Below, in pieces: positions 25,020-45,453 of a stretch of DNA of 64,000 nucleotides. The translations under genes and the position numbers were made by a program. This DNA comes from Alistipes sp. ZOR0009 (GTDB lineage Bacteria; Bacteroidota; Bacteroidia; Bacteroidales; ZOR0009), in the NCBI RefSeq assembly GCF_000798815.1, contig NZ_JTLD01000004.1, positions 310,001 to 374,000 on the forward strand, in the 5' to 3' direction. The first letter of the stretch is position 1. The number at the start of each line of letters is the position of its first letter. The notes under the pieces are model-generated. The model was given only the letters and a program-made list of their open reading frames with translations, had not been told where the DNA came from and searched no databases.

Positions 25020-26552
25020 ATGAAAAAGGTATTGACCCTCGTATTTACGCTTGTTACGCTTATCTCTACTTGTCTTGCCGGTCCTGCTAAGAGCATTGCC
25101 CCCAAGCGGGAGATGCGGGCGGCCTGGATTGCCTCGGTTGAAAACATAGATTGGCCATCGAAAGCTGGGCTATCGGCTGAGGAGCAAAAGAAGGAGCTAA
25201 CCGCCTTAGTTGAAAAACTAAATGAGGTAGGAATCAACACTATCGTACTACAAATTAGGCCCTACGGCGATGCGCTTTACGAGTCGAAAATAGAGCCTTG
25301 GTCGAAATACCTAACAGGGAAGCAAGGTGTAGCACCGCAATCGGGGTTTGATCCGCTGTCGTTTATGATTGAGGAGTGCCACAAGCGGTACATGGAACTT
25401 CATGCCTGGTTTAACCCTTACAGGGTAGCCAAGACAGACGATGCAGAGGTGAATGCGCAGCATGTAAGCCGTAAGCATCCGGAGTGGCTCGTTACGTATG
25501 GCAAGCTAAAGGTTTTAGACCCAGGGTTACCGCAAACGCGCGAATACGTAACGCAGGTAATTATGGATGTTGTACGTCGGTACGACGTGGATGGCATTCA
25601 CTTAGATGACTACTTCTACCCCTACAAAATAAAAGGCGTTGAATTTAACGATAAGAGCTCTTTTGCAGCGCATTCGCGAGGTTTTAAGCCATCGCAAAAG
25701 AATGACTGGCGAAGGGACAACGTTAACCTTATCATTAAAATGCTTGCCGACAGCATACACGCCGCTAAACCATACGTAAAGTTTGGAGTATCGCCATTCG
25801 GAATATGGCGAAATAAGAAATCGGATGCGCGCGGATCGGAAACGAACGGTGGGCAAAATTACGACGATTTGTATGCCGATATTTTGCTATGGCTACAAAA
25901 CCGTTGGGTAGATTACATTGTGCCGCAGCTGTACTGGCATATCGGAATGAAATCGGCCAACTACGAAACGCTGGCCAAATGGTGGGCAGCCAACTGCCAC
26001 GGGGTACCACTCTATATTGGACAGGGTGTTTACAAGATAGATGCCCAATCAAAAGATAAGGCATGGGCAGATGGAAAGGAGATAGCACGACAAATAACCC
26101 TGAACCGAAGCATACCACAGATACAGGGAAGCTTTTTCTATAGCGCCAAGTCGTTTATGCAAAATCCGATGGGCTTAAACAGCAAGCTAAAAAAAGAATT
26201 TTACCGCTACCCTGCGCTTATTCCGACCACACCACGGTTAGATAGCATTGCCCCCGCCAAACCCACCAACCTTGTGGCTAAAAAAGGAGCTTCGATCATA
26301 AAGCTGAGCTGGGCTGCAGGAGATAGCACTGCTACCGATGGGGAAAAAAGTCGCTACTACGTGGTTTACCGGTTTGATGATGATGATGACCTAAATAACC
26401 CAGCCAACATATATACCATTACAAGAGATACAAGTATCACCCTAAAAAGAAGGCAAGCGCTTGAGCGGGGAAAGGTACGCTTCTGCGTAACAGCACTTGA
26501 CAGGCTAAGCAACGAGAGTGAGCCTACCGAGAAAGTAACGGTGAGAATGTAG
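25020..26552 (+). CDS. GHL10-type (DUF187) glycosyl-hydrolase-like secreted protein
   Basis: 510 residues from the ATG at 25020, which gives a clean signal peptide (MKKVLTLVFTLVTLISTCLA); the frame upstream runs through the infB terminator. The main domain is the GHL10 barrel: 'EMRAAWIASVENIDWP', 'GINTIVLQIRPYGDALY', 'LHAWFNPYRVAK', the acidic 'DGIHLDDYFYPY' and 'YIVPQLYWHIG'. The C-terminal 100 residues are a fibronectin-III-like domain ('PAKPTNLVAKKG', 'SRYYVVYRFDD'). Related proteins such as YngK act on peptidoglycan or its fragments, but substrate is not proven. The signal contains a Cys (STCLAG) that might also serve as a lipobox. Confidence 0.85.
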   Translation: MKKVLTLVFTLVTLISTCLAGPAKSIAPKREMRAAWIASVENIDWPSKAGLSAEEQKKELTALVEKLNEVGINTIVLQIRPYGDALYESKIEPWSKYLTGKQGVAPQSGFDPLSFMIEECHKRYMELHAWFNPYRVAKTDDAEVNAQHVSRKHPEWLVTYGKLKVLDPGLPQTREYVTQVIMDVVRRYDVDGIHLDDYFYPYKIKGVEFNDKSSFAAHSRGFKPSQKNDWRRDNVNLIIKMLADSIHAAKPYVKFGVSPFGIWRNKKSDARGSETNGGQNYDDLYADILLWLQNRWVDYIVPQLYWHIGMKSANYETLAKWWAANCHGVPLYIGQGVYKIDAQSKDKAWADGKEIARQITLNRSIPQIQGSFFYSAKSFMQNPMGLNSKLKKEFYRYPALIPTTPRLDSIAPAKPTNLVAKKGASIIKLSWAAGDSTATDGEKSRYYVVYRFDDDDDLNNPANIYTITRDTSITLKRRQALERGKVRFCVTALDRLSNESEPTEKVTVRM

Positions 26553-27622
26553 CAGGGGAAAGCAATGAGATTATAAAATAGTCGTGGAGAAGGGAAACGT
26601 AATATATTTAATGTAAAAAGGATTACAGTCCCCTACCCCTGCCGAAGACTCCCGCTACCCACTAAGCGCTATACAAAATAGCGTACACAAAAAGAAAATG
26701 CTATAACAGCAAACAGGTAATGGCCTATAAATAGAAAATACGACTGCGAGTAATCTAGCTAACCTAGTAAATATTGATCGGAAGCAAATACGTTTTCGAT
26801 CTCTTTTTTTTACATCCTGCAGAAAACAAATGCATAAAAAGCTATGCAAATTGACAGCCTCCGATACCCATCATGTGAGCATGTTTGCTACAAATAAATA
26901 ACCTGTAACCCGTTTGACATAGCCATTTTAAACGATTACCAGCCATTTTAAAGCGATTAACATGCCATTTTACCATCTTACAATCCCGTTTTTACCATTT
27001 ACACAGATGTTTTTACGGTTTACATGCCCGTTTTTTAGCTTTACATACGCTGTAATACATCTTACAACCTTGCATTTATATTTTACAGCATCTGCATAAC
27101 GATTGACATACCTGTTTTTTGTACTAACAGAGGTGAAGCATTACTAACATAAAGGAAATGACATGTACTAAAAGCAAGCACCTGCTCACATATACACCTA
27201 TAACACACCAAATAAATCTTCTACTAAATACGAGCAACAATAACCTCCTAGGAAAGAAAGTAGACCATTAACCTCCATTAAAAGCGTTAGCCCTACCATA
27301 AAAAACAAAAGAGTAGCCATCATCTAAATAAAATTAGGAAGAATAGCATAAAACATCCCTCGATAAAAGAAACAGTGTGCAAAAAATAGGCATTTTTAAG
27401 GCTATAACGAGCAATCTAACCACATAAATACATATAAATCAAACTAACAAACATTTACACATAAATACAATCATATCAATCCGCTTTAAAAAGCCTGTAT
27501 TGCAATAATTACACTTAAACTGAAATTCAAAAACAACAACCCACAAGCTAACGTTTATTATTTCATGTAAAAATTCTTATATTAAACATAAAGCTATTTG
27601 ATGAATGTTTTGTAAATTGAAC
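26553..27622. other. 1.07-kb AT-rich non-coding region
   Basis: No convincing gene. It contains the degenerate 21-nt array at 26914-27164. Upstream at 26781-26792 there is a 12-base word (GAAGCAAATACG) identical to part of the other array at 44.4 kb. The right part (27170-27600) is very AT-rich and should include the promoter of the 27623 gene, but no good TAnnTTTG was found. Confidence 0.6.
26914..27164. repeat. Degenerate tandem array with 21-nt period (about 11-12 units)
   Basis: Units begin with TTAC, TTGAC or TAAC at 26914, 26936, 26957, 26978, 26999, 27020, 27041, 27062, 27083, 27103, 27124 and 27144. The steps are 22, 21 (seven times), 20, 21 and 20. Most units then have a C/G-containing centre followed by a T-run (CCATTTTA, CCGTTTTT, ATGTTTTT). 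Sequence identity between units is low, but the phase is kept. A frame at 26962-27099 is open for 45 codons and reads as hydrophobic heptads ending in Phe/Leu-Thr; this is probably a by-product of the period. Confidence 0.7.
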
Positions 27623-41555: not shown

Positions 41556-41586
41556 AGTACTAAAATCACATAAACGACGACAAACA

Positions 41587-43947
41587 ATGAACGAAAGAGT
41601 TAAACAACTACGAGAGGAGAGCTTAAATGCTGTAAACACCCTTTCGTCCGAACGGGGGATACTGATAACCCAGTTCTTTAAAAGTATGGAGGATCATAAG
41701 ATATCGGTACCTATGCTTAGGGCCATGTCCTTCGACTACATCCTCAACAATAAAAAAATATATATAGGTAAAGGGGAGCTTATCGTGGGCGAAAGAGGTC
41801 CAAAGCCCAAGGCTACACCAACCTACCCCGAGATTTGCGTCCACACCCAGGACGATCTCGAAATCCTCAACAACCGTAAGCATGTATCCTTTAAGGTCGA
41901 CGAGCAAACACGCATCGACTTTAGGGATATCATTACCCCCTACTGGACTGGTCGTACCAACCGCGACCGAATAATGAGAGCCCAGAATAAGGAGTGGAAG
42001 AAAGCCTTCGAAGCGGGCATCTTTACCGAGTTTATGGAGCAGCGCGCTCCCGGACATACGGTGTGCGGTGGCAAAATCTACCAGATGGGAATGAACGACT
42101 TCATCGAACAAATTGATGGGGTTATTAAGCAGATCTGCGTCCAAAAGGATATCGACAGCAATAAGCTCGAGGAGCTAAAGTCGATGCGGGTTGCAGCCCA
42201 AGCCATCATCAGCTACGCCAACAGGCACGCCGACGAGCTCGAAATCCTTGCATCAACCGAACAGGATACGGCTCGCGAGGCGGAGCTCCGCAAGATGGCT
42301 CAGGTATGCCGCAACGTACCGGCCAATAAGCCCCAAACATTCCACGAGGCGCTCCAGTACTACTGGTTTATCCACCTTGGCGTAATCACCGAGCTCAACC
42401 CTTGGGATGCCTTCAACCCCGGCCGATTAGATCAGCACCTTTACCCCTTCTATATCGCCGACATAGAGAATGGAACCCTAACAAAAGAGGAGGCCATAGA
42501 GCTGCTCCAATGCTTTTGGGTGAAGTTCAACAACCACCCCTCACCTCCTAAAGTAGGAATCACCGCGCAGGAGAGCAGCACCTACACCGACTTCTGCCTA
42601 ATAAACGTGGGAGGTGTTAAGGAGGATGGCAGCGATGGCGTTAACGAGGTCTCCTTCATGATTCTCGATGTTATCGAGGAGATGCGCCTGCTTCAACCCA
42701 GCTCTATGGTGCAGCTATCGAAGAAGAACCCCGACAGCTTTATCGATCGAACCATCCACATCTCCAAAACTGGCTTCGGGCAGCCCTCCATCTTCAACAC
42801 AGACGCCATGATCCAGGAGATGCTCCGCCAAGGAAAAAGCATTACCGACGCCAGACGCGGAGGAGCCAGCGGATGCGTGGAGGTGGGAGCCTTTGGAACC
42901 GAGGCCTACTGGCTTTCGGGCTACTTCAATATCCCCAAGATATTCGAGCTTACCCTAAATAACGGATACGACCCCAGAACCTCGCAGCAGCTTGGCCCCA
43001 AAACAGGCGACGCCGCCGCCTTCACCTCCTACGAGGAGCTGCTTAAAGCTTTCGAGGAGCAGGTAAACCACTTTATGCGCATCAAGATTGAGGGTAACGT
43101 AAAGAACGAGCGCATATTTGCCCAGTTTATGCCCGTTCCTTTCCTCTCCATTTTGGTGGACGACTGCATAACCAACGGTGTAGACTACAACGCAGGCGGA
43201 GCACGCTACAACACCACCTACGTACAGGGTGTAGGACTCGGAACCATTACCGACTGCCTCTCGGCCATCAAATTCCACGTCTTCGAAAAGAAGAACGTAA
43301 GCATGAGCATCATGCTGCAAGCGCTAAGAAGCAACTTCGAAGGCTACCAAAACCTGCGCAACGAGCTTATATTCAATACGCCAAAGTATGGTAACGACGA
43401 CGATCGCGCAGATAGATGCCTAAACGAGGTATTTGAGATATACTACAACGCGGTTGACGGAAAGCCAAACCCCAGAGGTGGCGTACACCGAGTAGACCTG
43501 CTTCCAACCACCTGCCACATCTACTTTGGTAAGGTAACCGGAGCATTACCCGATGGAAGAAAGGCCAACACCCCTCTTTCTGAAGGTATATCCCCCTCGC
43601 AAGGCTGCGACACCAACGGACCTACCGCTGCCATAAAGTCGGCTTCCAAAATAGACCACGTACGAACAGGAGGAACGCTGCTAAACATGAAATTTGCTCC
43701 CCAATTCTTTAAAAACGAGGAGGCTATTAAGCGTGTATCCAGCTTAGTTCGCAGCTACTTTAAGCTAGATGGCCACCATATTCAGTTTAACGTGGTTAAT
43801 GCCGACACGCTCCGAAAAGCGCAGAAGCAACCAGAGCTATACCGCGATCTGATTGTAAGAGTTGCGGGCTTCAGCGACTACTTCAACGATCTGGGTCCTG
43901 AGCTCCAAAACGAAATTATCACTCGCACCGAGCATGAATCCATATAG
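41587..43947 (+). CDS. hypD: Glycyl-radical dehydratase, probably trans-4-hydroxy-L-proline dehydratase
   Basis: 786 residues from the ATG at 41587; the frame back to 41467 overlaps the activator gene and is rejected. The thiyl Cys is C430 in 'GGASGCVEVGAFG', with general-base Glu E432. The glycyl radical is G761 in 'VRVAGFSDYF'. Residues that I recall as lining the HypD pocket are present with an offset of 3-4: F149, H157, D274, S330, D335, F336, Y446 and T641. HypD dehydrates trans-4-hydroxyproline to pyrroline-5-carboxylate, which ProC then reduces to proline; no proC is in the window. A terminator follows. Oxygen sensitivity of the radical implies anaerobic use. Confidence 0.85.
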   Translation: MNERVKQLREESLNAVNTLSSERGILITQFFKSMEDHKISVPMLRAMSFDYILNNKKIYIGKGELIVGERGPKPKATPTYPEICVHTQDDLEILNNRKHVSFKVDEQTRIDFRDIITPYWTGRTNRDRIMRAQNKEWKKAFEAGIFTEFMEQRAPGHTVCGGKIYQMGMNDFIEQIDGVIKQICVQKDIDSNKLEELKSMRVAAQAIISYANRHADELEILASTEQDTAREAELRKMAQVCRNVPANKPQTFHEALQYYWFIHLGVITELNPWDAFNPGRLDQHLYPFYIADIENGTLTKEEAIELLQCFWVKFNNHPSPPKVGITAQESSTYTDFCLINVGGVKEDGSDGVNEVSFMILDVIEEMRLLQPSSMVQLSKKNPDSFIDRTIHISKTGFGQPSIFNTDAMIQEMLRQGKSITDARRGGASGCVEVGAFGTEAYWLSGYFNIPKIFELTLNNGYDPRTSQQLGPKTGDAAAFTSYEELLKAFEEQVNHFMRIKIEGNVKNERIFAQFMPVPFLSILVDDCITNGVDYNAGGARYNTTYVQGVGLGTITDCLSAIKFHVFEKKNVSMSIMLQALRSNFEGYQNLRNELIFNTPKYGNDDDRADRCLNEVFEIYYNAVDGKPNPRGGVHRVDLLPTTCHIYFGKVTGALPDGRKANTPLSEGISPSQGCDTNGPTAAIKSASKIDHVRTGGTLLNMKFAPQFFKNEEAIKRVSSLVRSYFKLDGHHIQFNVVNADTLRKAQKQPELYRDLIVRVAGFSDYFNDLGPELQNEIITRTEHESI

Positions 43948-44007
43948 CATAGCTTAGAAGCCTTACGCCTCTACAAGCCTTTTTAGGGCTACCGGCTCCA
44001 AGAAGGG

Positions 44008-44048
44008 TAGAGCGCTGAAGGCGACCTAGCTGTAGCGCTTCTTCTATA
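44008..44048 (+). other. Imperfect hairpin downstream of hypD
   Basis: AGAAG..AGAGCGCT on the left can pair with AGCGCTTCTTCT on the right (5-base bulge), just upstream of the terminator at 44054. It would lie in the 3' UTR of the operon. Confidence 0.35.
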
Positions 44049-44053
44049 AGTGT

Positions 44054-44088
44054 AACGCATACCTCCATCATAGGGGTATGCGTTTTTT
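44054..44088 (+). terminator. Terminator of the activator-hypD operon
   Basis: AACGCATACC (44054-44063) pairs with GGTATGCGTT (44075-44084) around an 11-base loop, followed by a T-run to 44088. It lies 106 bases after the hypD stop. Confidence 0.8.
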
Positions 44089-44305
44089 CATATCCCCCCA
44101 CAAAAGTAGCGGCTTCGAGGTGCTGACGGTCACCTTACCCGCACCCGCTTTTCAGAATTGCATGTTCCCTCTTAGGCAGCACTGCCAAATTGAGCGAAAT
44201 ACGAGCAAGTAGCGCGCTAAAACAAGCCCAAAGATGAGAGGCAGCGCAGCCCTGCCCCATAGTGCCTTAACCTTGGTCAAGGATTCCACAAGCTAGATCT
44301 AGGAT

Positions 44306-44516
44306 GATGCAAACAAGATCAAAGATGAGACAAATACGATAATATATAGATCAAACTAGACAATATATGAACCAAACTAGGTAATATATGGATCAAAGTA
44401 GACAATATATGAAGCAAATACGATAATATATGAGACAAATACGATAATATATGAAGCAAATATTATAATATATGAACCAAACTAGGTAATATATGAAGCA
44501 AACTAGACCATATATG
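44306..44516. repeat. Tandem array of a 21-bp AT-rich direct repeat (9 good units plus one degenerate)
   Basis: The word CAAA recurs at 44331, 44352, 44373, 44394, 44415, 44436, 44457, 44478 and 44499, exactly every 21 bases, and a weaker unit starts with CAAA at 44310. Typical units are AAGCAAATACGATAATATAT+G and AACCAAACTAGGTAATATAT+G. Each ends in an (A/C)ATATATG word. A 6-base centre varies (TACGAT, CTAGAC, CTAGGT, GTAGAC, TATTAT). No gene for a replication or partition protein is nearby. Confidence 0.92.
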
Positions 44517-44660
44517 CCCCCTTCACTACCAAATATAATACAGCAAAAACCTTTTACCAAACGACGACAAAGCACTATATTTCAAGATGTTTTAAGTGTA
44601 TAAGAAACAGCAATTGCACCGAACGGATTTAGAAGCAGGTGTAACCATAAAAGGAAAGAA

Positions 44661-45007
44661 CCCTACTACCTTGATAAGGAGTAGGTGCCACAGAGCCCTT
44701 ACCCATCGCTACCTAAGCAGGACCCCTTAGCCAGAAATGCCGTTAGGTGCAGCTATCGTGTAAGGGATGGCCTCCATTACCTGCTAGCTGCAGGGCGGTA
44801 GTAGCCGCTGCAGCAAAAAGCGACCACCACGCCAGCGGGAAGTAAAAATATCAAAGGGAGCCGAACCTGAAAGGCAGCAACGGACAGTAGGAAAAAGTAT
44901 GGGAGCCCGCCTTAAAAAGCAGCAGCAGCCAAAGTGCTGCCACACATAGCGACGCTACCCTGCCTATACCATAAGCCAAGGGGCTAAACGGAACGGATAT
45001 CCCCTTT
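44661..45007. ncRNA. Hairpin-rich intergenic stretch, candidate structured RNA (strand unknown)
   Basis: A series of strong inverted repeats with no ORF. CCTACT-a-CCTT / AAGG-AGTAGG is at 44662-44685. CCCTTAC / GTAAGGG (44697-44703 with 44760-44766) encloses ACCTAA / TTAGGT. GCTGCAG-GGC / GCC-g-CTGCAGC is at 44787-44814. AAGGGG / CCCCTT is at about 44978-45007. The GC content is higher than in the neighbouring array. It matches no RNA family I can recall, and neither promoter nor strand is known. Confidence 0.35.
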
Positions 45008-45012
45008 CACCA

Positions 45013-45049
45013 AAAAAGTAAGGCTACCCGTTGGGTAGCCTTACTTTTT
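45013..45049 (-). terminator. Terminator of gcvH
   Basis: The perfect 17-bp arms 45013-45029 (AAAAAGTAAGGCTACCC) and 45033-45049 (GGGTAGCCTTACTTTTT) have a 3-base loop, 24 bases past the gcvH stop. Confidence 0.85.
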
Positions 45050-45072
45050 ATAATTGCGTTTAAGATATCTTA

Positions 45073-45453
45073 CTATGCGTCAATAAGAGCTGCATATTGC
45101 TCTGCAGAAAGAAGCTCTTCTAGCTCGGCAGGGTTAGCAACCTTAACCTTAATCATCCAGCCTGCTCCGTATGGATCCTTATTGATGCTGTCTGGTTGGT
45201 CAGCAAGACCACCATTAACTTCAATAACTTCACCAGCAAGAGGCATAAATGCGTCAGATACTGTCTTAACCGCTTCGATGGTACCAAAAACTTCCTCTTT
45301 TTCAAGAGTTTCGCCTTCTGTTTCGATCTCAACGAAAACGATATCTCCTAGCTGACCTTGAGCAAAATCGGTAATACCGATAGTTACAACGTCGCCATCT
45401 ACAAGAACCCACTCGTGATCCTTGGTGTACTTAAGATTTGATGGAATATTCAT
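45073..45453 (-). CDS. gcvH: Glycine cleavage system H protein
   Basis: 126 residues, a normal length. The lipoyl domain shows 'KYTKDHEWVLVDGDVVTIGI', 'FAQGQLGDIVFVEI' and the lipoylation site Lys in 'GTIEAVKTVSDAFMPLAGEV', then 'NKDPYGAGWMIKV'. H protein carries the aminomethyl group between the P, T and L proteins; none of those is in the window. It lies downstream of sprA on the same strand, a neighbourhood known from other Bacteroidota. Confidence 0.96.
   Translation of the reverse strand: MNIPSNLKYTKDHEWVLVDGDVVTIGITDFAQGQLGDIVFVEIETEGETLEKEEVFGTIEAVKTVSDAFMPLAGEVIEVNGGLADQPDSINKDPYGAGWMIKVKVANPAELEELLSAEQYAALIDA

Follow-up and report, generated by a model that had tools for sequence, protein, structure and literature searches.

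The window analysed here is a 64-kb stretch of Alistipes sp. ZOR0009 (GCF_000798815.1, contig NZ_JTLD01000004.1, positions 310,001–374,000), and the feature coordinates below are window-based. Two convergent genes enclose a gap (43948–45072) without a convincing gene: on the forward strand the gene for HypD, trans-4-hydroxy-L-proline dehydratase (41584–43947; NF043068, 1218 bits for a cut-off of 1100), and on the reverse strand the gene for GcvH, the glycine cleavage H protein (45073–45453; TIGR00527, 148 bits for a cut-off of 116). An intrinsic-terminator-like hairpin of the HypD operon, a 12-pair stem followed by a T run, lies on the forward strand at 44054–44084. At the other border of the gap, the 3' end of gcvH carries an inverted repeat (45013–45049, reverse strand) with a 92% match to its own reverse complement; by reading it is the probable gcvH terminator, and the terminator scan did not pick it up. 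Between these two features lie ten in-register 21-bp units of the form CAAA-N7-ATATATG-NNN, without indels (44310–44519, forward strand), as defined by unit listing, TRF, pattern matching and alignment with a related array on contig C119. No tRNA or Rfam family was found near this array, nor any Rfam hit in the whole window. Since it is situated between convergent genes and after the HypD terminator hairpin, the array is not in an obvious promoter region.

CAAA occurs ten times in the array at a spacing of exactly 21 bp (44310, 44331, 44352, 44373, 44394, 44415, 44436, 44457, 44478 and 44499), and a degenerate edge unit, CAAGCTAGATCTAGGATGATG (44289–44309, forward strand), stands in the same register and is similar to the first unit of the C119 array, GATCTAGGATGACG. 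TRF, run independently, recovers the array with period 21, about 10 copies and a score of 194, together with higher-order periods of 84 and 105 bp that score up to 305; its head-to-tail units are longer than 9 bp, as in a minisatellite. The pattern CAAAN6AATATATG has seven exact matches in the 64-kb window, and all of them fall within the array. The antisense ORF running across the array has a hexamer coding score of −0.39, against +0.56 for HypD and +0.67 for gcvH. A preliminary description had reported a strict two-turn array in a gene-free gap after the HypD operon, and register, TRF and the negative coding score agree with it. Its 21-bp spacing is confirmed, with ten rather than nine CAAA blocks; the ATATATG ends that it called conserved are kept in eight units out of ten, the first ending in AAAGATG and the second in ATATATA; and the array does lie after the HypD operon, with the correction that it follows the terminator hairpin and that the flanking genes are convergent. 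The same window holds a second, degenerate 20–21-bp array of the TGTAAA..GTAAAAA type (26911–27119; TRF), in the gap after a gene ending at 26552; its sequence is unrelated to that of the first array and it forms its own cluster in the all-against-all comparison described below.

The family of the window array comprises a single other locus in the ZOR0009 genome, on contig C119 (L033 6019–6348, G000), found by DNA search and with a profile built from both arrays; the profile search revealed no member in the two sister species (E above 0.25). The C119 array has a 42-bp unit composed of two 21-bp halves and repeated about seven times. Alignment of the two arrays gives CAA(A)..GA..A.A.ATG as the conserved positions, the first and last window units being similar to the two C119 halves and the inner ones having diverged. 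Homology hardly extends beyond the arrays, which share no flanking sequence; an inverted partial copy (CGTCATCTTTGATC) borders the C119 array on one side. The 3' ends of hypD and gcvH carry no array in either sister species, and between species the window array is either present or absent. A regulator linked to HypD or gcvH was rejected. Such absence from relatives had been named beforehand as the behaviour of a neutral minisatellite; it is what we observe at these two 3' ends, although the ruler common to the arrays of the genus is not expected of such an element.

Searching for the consensus and for 21-base periodicity elsewhere, as had been suggested, thus returned one relative, and with it many intergenic arrays of period 21 or 42 bp unrelated to it. 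In 476 kb of the ZOR0009 genome TRF detects many arrays of these periods whose units are unrelated to one another. For counting, we combined these 476 kb with 200 kb from each sister species (876 kb, covering all three sequenced species of the genus), took 400 kb from 12 genomes of other families of the same order as a control, and retained noncoding arrays of at least 150 bp, genes being called by a hexamer model; 21-bp arrays are often open in some reading frame. The genus sample contains 44 such arrays, 40 of which have a base period of 20–22 or 41–42 bp (one of 20, 12 of 21, three of 22, seven of 41 and 17 of 42 bp); the other four have no clear period, with best lag identities of 0.34–0.47. 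The control yields two arrays, neither in this class. By all-against-all comparison the 40 on-period arrays fall into 37 sequence clusters, and about half of the 42-bp arrays have no 21-bp sub-repeat. Arrays of 31–32 bp and at least 150 bp are lacking in the genus sample. A binomial test against an even spread of periods over 5–69 bp gives 2e-28, with a simplistic null and a few related arrays among those counted. With the window and the C119 stretch left aside, 400 kb of the ZOR0009 genome contain 12 such arrays, or about 130 when scaled to the whole genome, and scaling gives about 195 and 320 per genome for the sister species, all three figures coming from small samples of sequence stretches; we estimate that genomes of this genus contain a hundred or more intergenic arrays each, nearly all with a period of 21 or 42 bases. 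Higher-order periods of 84, 105 and 126 bp indicate that multi-unit blocks have been amplified. Small dispersed array families also exist in the genus. A universal CAA..ATG motif was considered and dropped: among the matches listed for a loose three-unit pattern, many 21-bp arrays were unrelated to one another, and their common core was imposed by the pattern. Our search of openly available literature yielded no description of this class, which does not prove that none exists.

The window array is therefore one locus of a satellite-like class that is defined by spacing, and this spacing is apparently governed by a factor apart from sequence. The emphasis that the preliminary description placed on two helical turns was well chosen, a period of 20–22 or 41–42 bp being common to unrelated arrays throughout the genus. 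Two further kinds of repeat were noted in this material. Noncoding heptamer and 14-mer repeats of the CTCACTA, TCTAAAR and TTAGACG types occur in both sister species (L270, L278:9071–9133, L285, L287, L312:77–121) and are possibly a separate repeat system, and tandem duplications of apparent tRNA genes, identified by reading, have periods of about 98 and 84 bp (L275:7395–7666 and L293:17123–17283, respectively).

Comparison of three syntenic stretches in the three species reveals how these arrays change. In orthologous gaps an array may be absent, as at L264:16889 (both sister species) and L283:12745 (G001), kept with homologous units, or swapped for an unrelated array on the same ruler. Some arrays are common to the two closer species and have related units; in diverged orthologous arrays the units are homogenised species by species. 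At L278:4498 and L278:13663 an array is present in G001 and G002, and the ZOR0009 genome has an unrelated 21/42-bp array in its place. One empty site was inspected in detail and showed no duplication of the target. Sequence thus turns over quickly, and the two-turn period persists in whichever array is present, which argues against iterons or one sequence-specific protein.

Several explanations of this ruler have to be weighed. The arrays could be functional scaffolds, two-turn phasing placing all units on one face of the DNA, where a nucleoid protein of low sequence specificity that wraps or bends DNA would form a filament or loop, for example to insulate neighbouring transcription units, with selection holding the spacing while the sequence drifts. 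Such scaffolds would account for a period that is conserved where sequence is not and for unrelated arrays occupying orthologous gaps, and predicted curvature is partly in line with them: repeats of random units of 20–22 or 31–32 bp are predicted to be several-fold more curved than those of 15–19 or 24–28 bp, and the window array ranks near the top in curvature (0.35, against 0.16 with its unit columns permuted and 0.09 for shuffled DNA). The bent element envisaged earlier accordingly has a high predicted curvature in its favour, but the z of the window array is only 1.5. Moreover, 31–32 bp would curve equally well and is not seen, and on average the genus arrays exceed their column-permuted counterparts in curvature only slightly (mean z 0.62, s.e. 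0.32, owing to a few arrays), so that curvature alone fits poorly. The ratio of indels to mismatches is 0.13 within arrays, close to the 0.15 obtained when ordinary noncoding DNA of two species is compared; this is a crude measure whose wraparound alignment overcalls indels in some arrays, the window array included; purifying selection on phase is thus not visible. Many arrays are also cleanly absent from the sister species, and altogether we consider a scaffold function rather unlikely. An action of the arrays as RNA, repeated 3' untranslated hairpins stopping or stabilising transcripts, is very doubtful. Seven out of 25 arrays, hand-picked from those seen earlier, do fold into more structure than unit-shuffled controls, and some units are clear hairpins, e.g. 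ATCTACCGTTG..CAACGGTAGAT in L280; the window array, however, has no significant dyad (p 0.53), folds no better than shuffled controls (z −0.75, p 0.20) and is preceded by a separate terminator hairpin, which speaks against a structured form of the repeat-containing RNA proposed for it. Only four of the 40 genus arrays have dyads above chance, and a single hairpin form as the ruler, or a general palindromic hairpin array, was rejected on this count.

Protein-binding sites were another reading proposed for the locus; the window and C119 arrays themselves could be iteron-like sites of one sequence-specific, species-specific protein that would contact the CAA(A) and ATG ends. Both arrays share the CAA, GA and A.A.ATG positions while other columns vary, and the 21-bp register is strict. 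Yet the family is confined to two loci of one genome and missing from the sister species, no dyad is evident in the window array, and its conserved columns are not clustered beyond chance (P 0.53); significant clustering was found in four of 22 hand-picked arrays, tested on in-register stretches from which indels were excluded by choice. The surrounding genes encode HypD, its activase, GcvH and a SprA-like protein, and no initiator gene was noticed among the nearby entries of the ORF list; the locus does not look like an ordinary iteron locus, as had been noted. Dozens of unrelated arrays on the same period imply that the period needs no sequence-specific protein, and we regard such sites as improbable here. 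For the class as a whole, a binding array of a single protein was rejected, since the 40 arrays represent 37 unrelated sequence families. Mobile minisatellites that spread with a leader and a tail, like the BrickBuilt MITE of Porphyromonas gingivalis, are likewise very improbable: that element comes from the same order and also consists of intergenic tandem bricks with conserved and variable halves (PMC4596501), and small dispersed families are present in the genus, but nearly every locus is its own family, the homology of the window/C119 pair stops where the arrays do, and the empty site inspected showed no duplicated target. Remnants of heptapeptide-repeat genes, seven codons making 21 bp, are already contradicted and have next to no chance of being correct. 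Both 21 and 42 are multiples of 3, and the C119 array is open in one frame per strand; its coding scores are nevertheless negative (−0.21 and −0.31), like that of the window array, and the window frame that matches the open C119 frame is broken by TAA. Several genus arrays repeat at 41 or 22 bp, which are not multiples of 3 or 7, so that neither codons nor heptamers are the ruler; a coding repeat was discarded on the hexamer score and these periods. A CRISPR array was also rejected, as the units vary by point changes over all 21 bp, there is no separate spacer and the window has no Rfam hit.

The explanation that we favour, with about an even chance, is that these are satellite-like arrays grown by slippage or unequal exchange on a ruler of helical geometry. 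The existence of the arrays, their period, their sequence diversity and their turnover are observed; the mode of growth and the physical origin of the ruler are inferred. Replication slippage or unequal exchange among units would make the arrays grow and homogenise, and copies would persist mainly when a whole, even number of helical turns separates them, because a nucleoid or repair complex would wrap or torsionally fix the DNA during exchange. Sequence would be free and spacing fixed, and the window array would have no job specific to HypD or gcvH. In its general form the proposal, which we think may equally well prove right or wrong, is that some bacterial genomes carry at least a hundred unrelated, fast-turnover intergenic satellites at two or four turns, created or selected by a sequence-independent molecular ruler such as a wrapping or repair complex. 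Against satellites on a helical ruler stand the 42-bp arrays without a 21-bp sub-repeat, about half of them, and the fact that we identified no known mutational mechanism with a 21-bp ruler, array formation being reconstructed from sequence. The arrays in which one unit block is kept and the rest varies (the four of 22 mentioned above) could reflect motif selection, and unrelated arrays in at least two orthologous gaps of different species could reflect a positional function.

Outside the genus, G205, from another family of the order, has nine shorter arrays (103–127 bp) with a period of 21–22 bp in 240 kb, five of them with significant dyads; four other deeper-sampled genomes of the order have essentially none. 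At the G205 loci L297, L342, L343, L344, L347, L348 and L351 the units are often hairpins with variable loops, for instance TTTGCCA-ccgtgt-TGGCAAA, and arms recur between loci. In other bacteria, among loci fetched for one 21-bp array, nine of 40 noncoding-like extra arrays also have a 21-bp period and different sequences, particularly in the metagenome bin Umea1_bin-1585 and in Bacillus sp. OV166; as the loci were pre-selected for such an array, this figure is only a lead. A dispersed short MITE-like element with AAACATGTTT palindromes 21 bp apart and a conserved right-hand flank was observed at L089, L097 and L129 (all three from Umea1_bin-1585, uncultured Bacteroidetes) and at L185, and 21-bp arrays of different sequence lie near it at L089, L097 and L112. 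At the loci L074, L095, L153 (Neobacillus rhizosphaerae), L147 (Bacillus sp. OV166) and L182, 21-bp arrays between genes combine a constant AAAATGAGC or AAATGGYA block with a variable stretch of 7–8 bp and are preceded at several loci by a similar leader.

The usual view of a bacterial minisatellite is that of an accident affecting a single sequence at a single locus. In this genus, spacing and not sequence is conserved across dozens of unrelated arrays in three species, which poses a general and testable question: is it helical geometry, or proteins bound to the DNA, that determines which tandem duplications form and are kept? Taken at a single locus, an array of this kind is easily misread as iterons or regulatory sites, and a description of the window array as a single protein-binding array would be unremarkable, and probably misleading too; binding sites for one sequence-specific protein find no support, since the genus arrays have no common sequence. 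The same order contains array-rich species and array-poor relatives, and comparing them is a natural way to find the responsible factor.

Bacterial VNTR minisatellites, used for strain typing (MLVA), have diverse unit lengths; the genus arrays resemble them as tandem arrays that differ in presence, length and sequence between relatives and depart from them in their concentration, within one genus, on two and four helical turns. Like the present arrays, plasmid iterons and centromere arrays (F sopC, for example) are direct repeats at helical spacing, but they have one sequence and a cognate protein usually encoded nearby, and we saw no sign of a single sequence or of such a protein here. In the TIGR guide-RNA array, which has an associated Tas protein, the repeat unit measures 36 nt and comes with two spacers; the unit of the window array measures 21 bp (TRF). 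Marine Beggiatoaceae also have abundant short direct repeats between genes, and these are a heptamer, TAACTGA, that is the same at all sites, in contrast to the diverse 21-bp units described here (PMC4679880). The nearest precedent is the BrickBuilt minisatellite, a single 23-nt family at 19 loci with a leader and a tail that have small inverted ends (PMC4596501). BrickBuilt arrays belong to the same order and are intergenic, head-to-tail, dispersed and imperfect, one half being better conserved than the other, and they too are predicted to form stem-loops (PMC4596501). No brick common to many loci emerged in the genus studied here, the profile recovering two loci only, and the homology of the window and C119 arrays is confined to the arrays, with no leader or tail bearing small inverted repeats in common. 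Whereas BrickBuilt is one sequence, the 40 arrays of this genus belong to 37 unrelated families with unshared flanks, and what is constant among them is the period of 21 or 42 bp.
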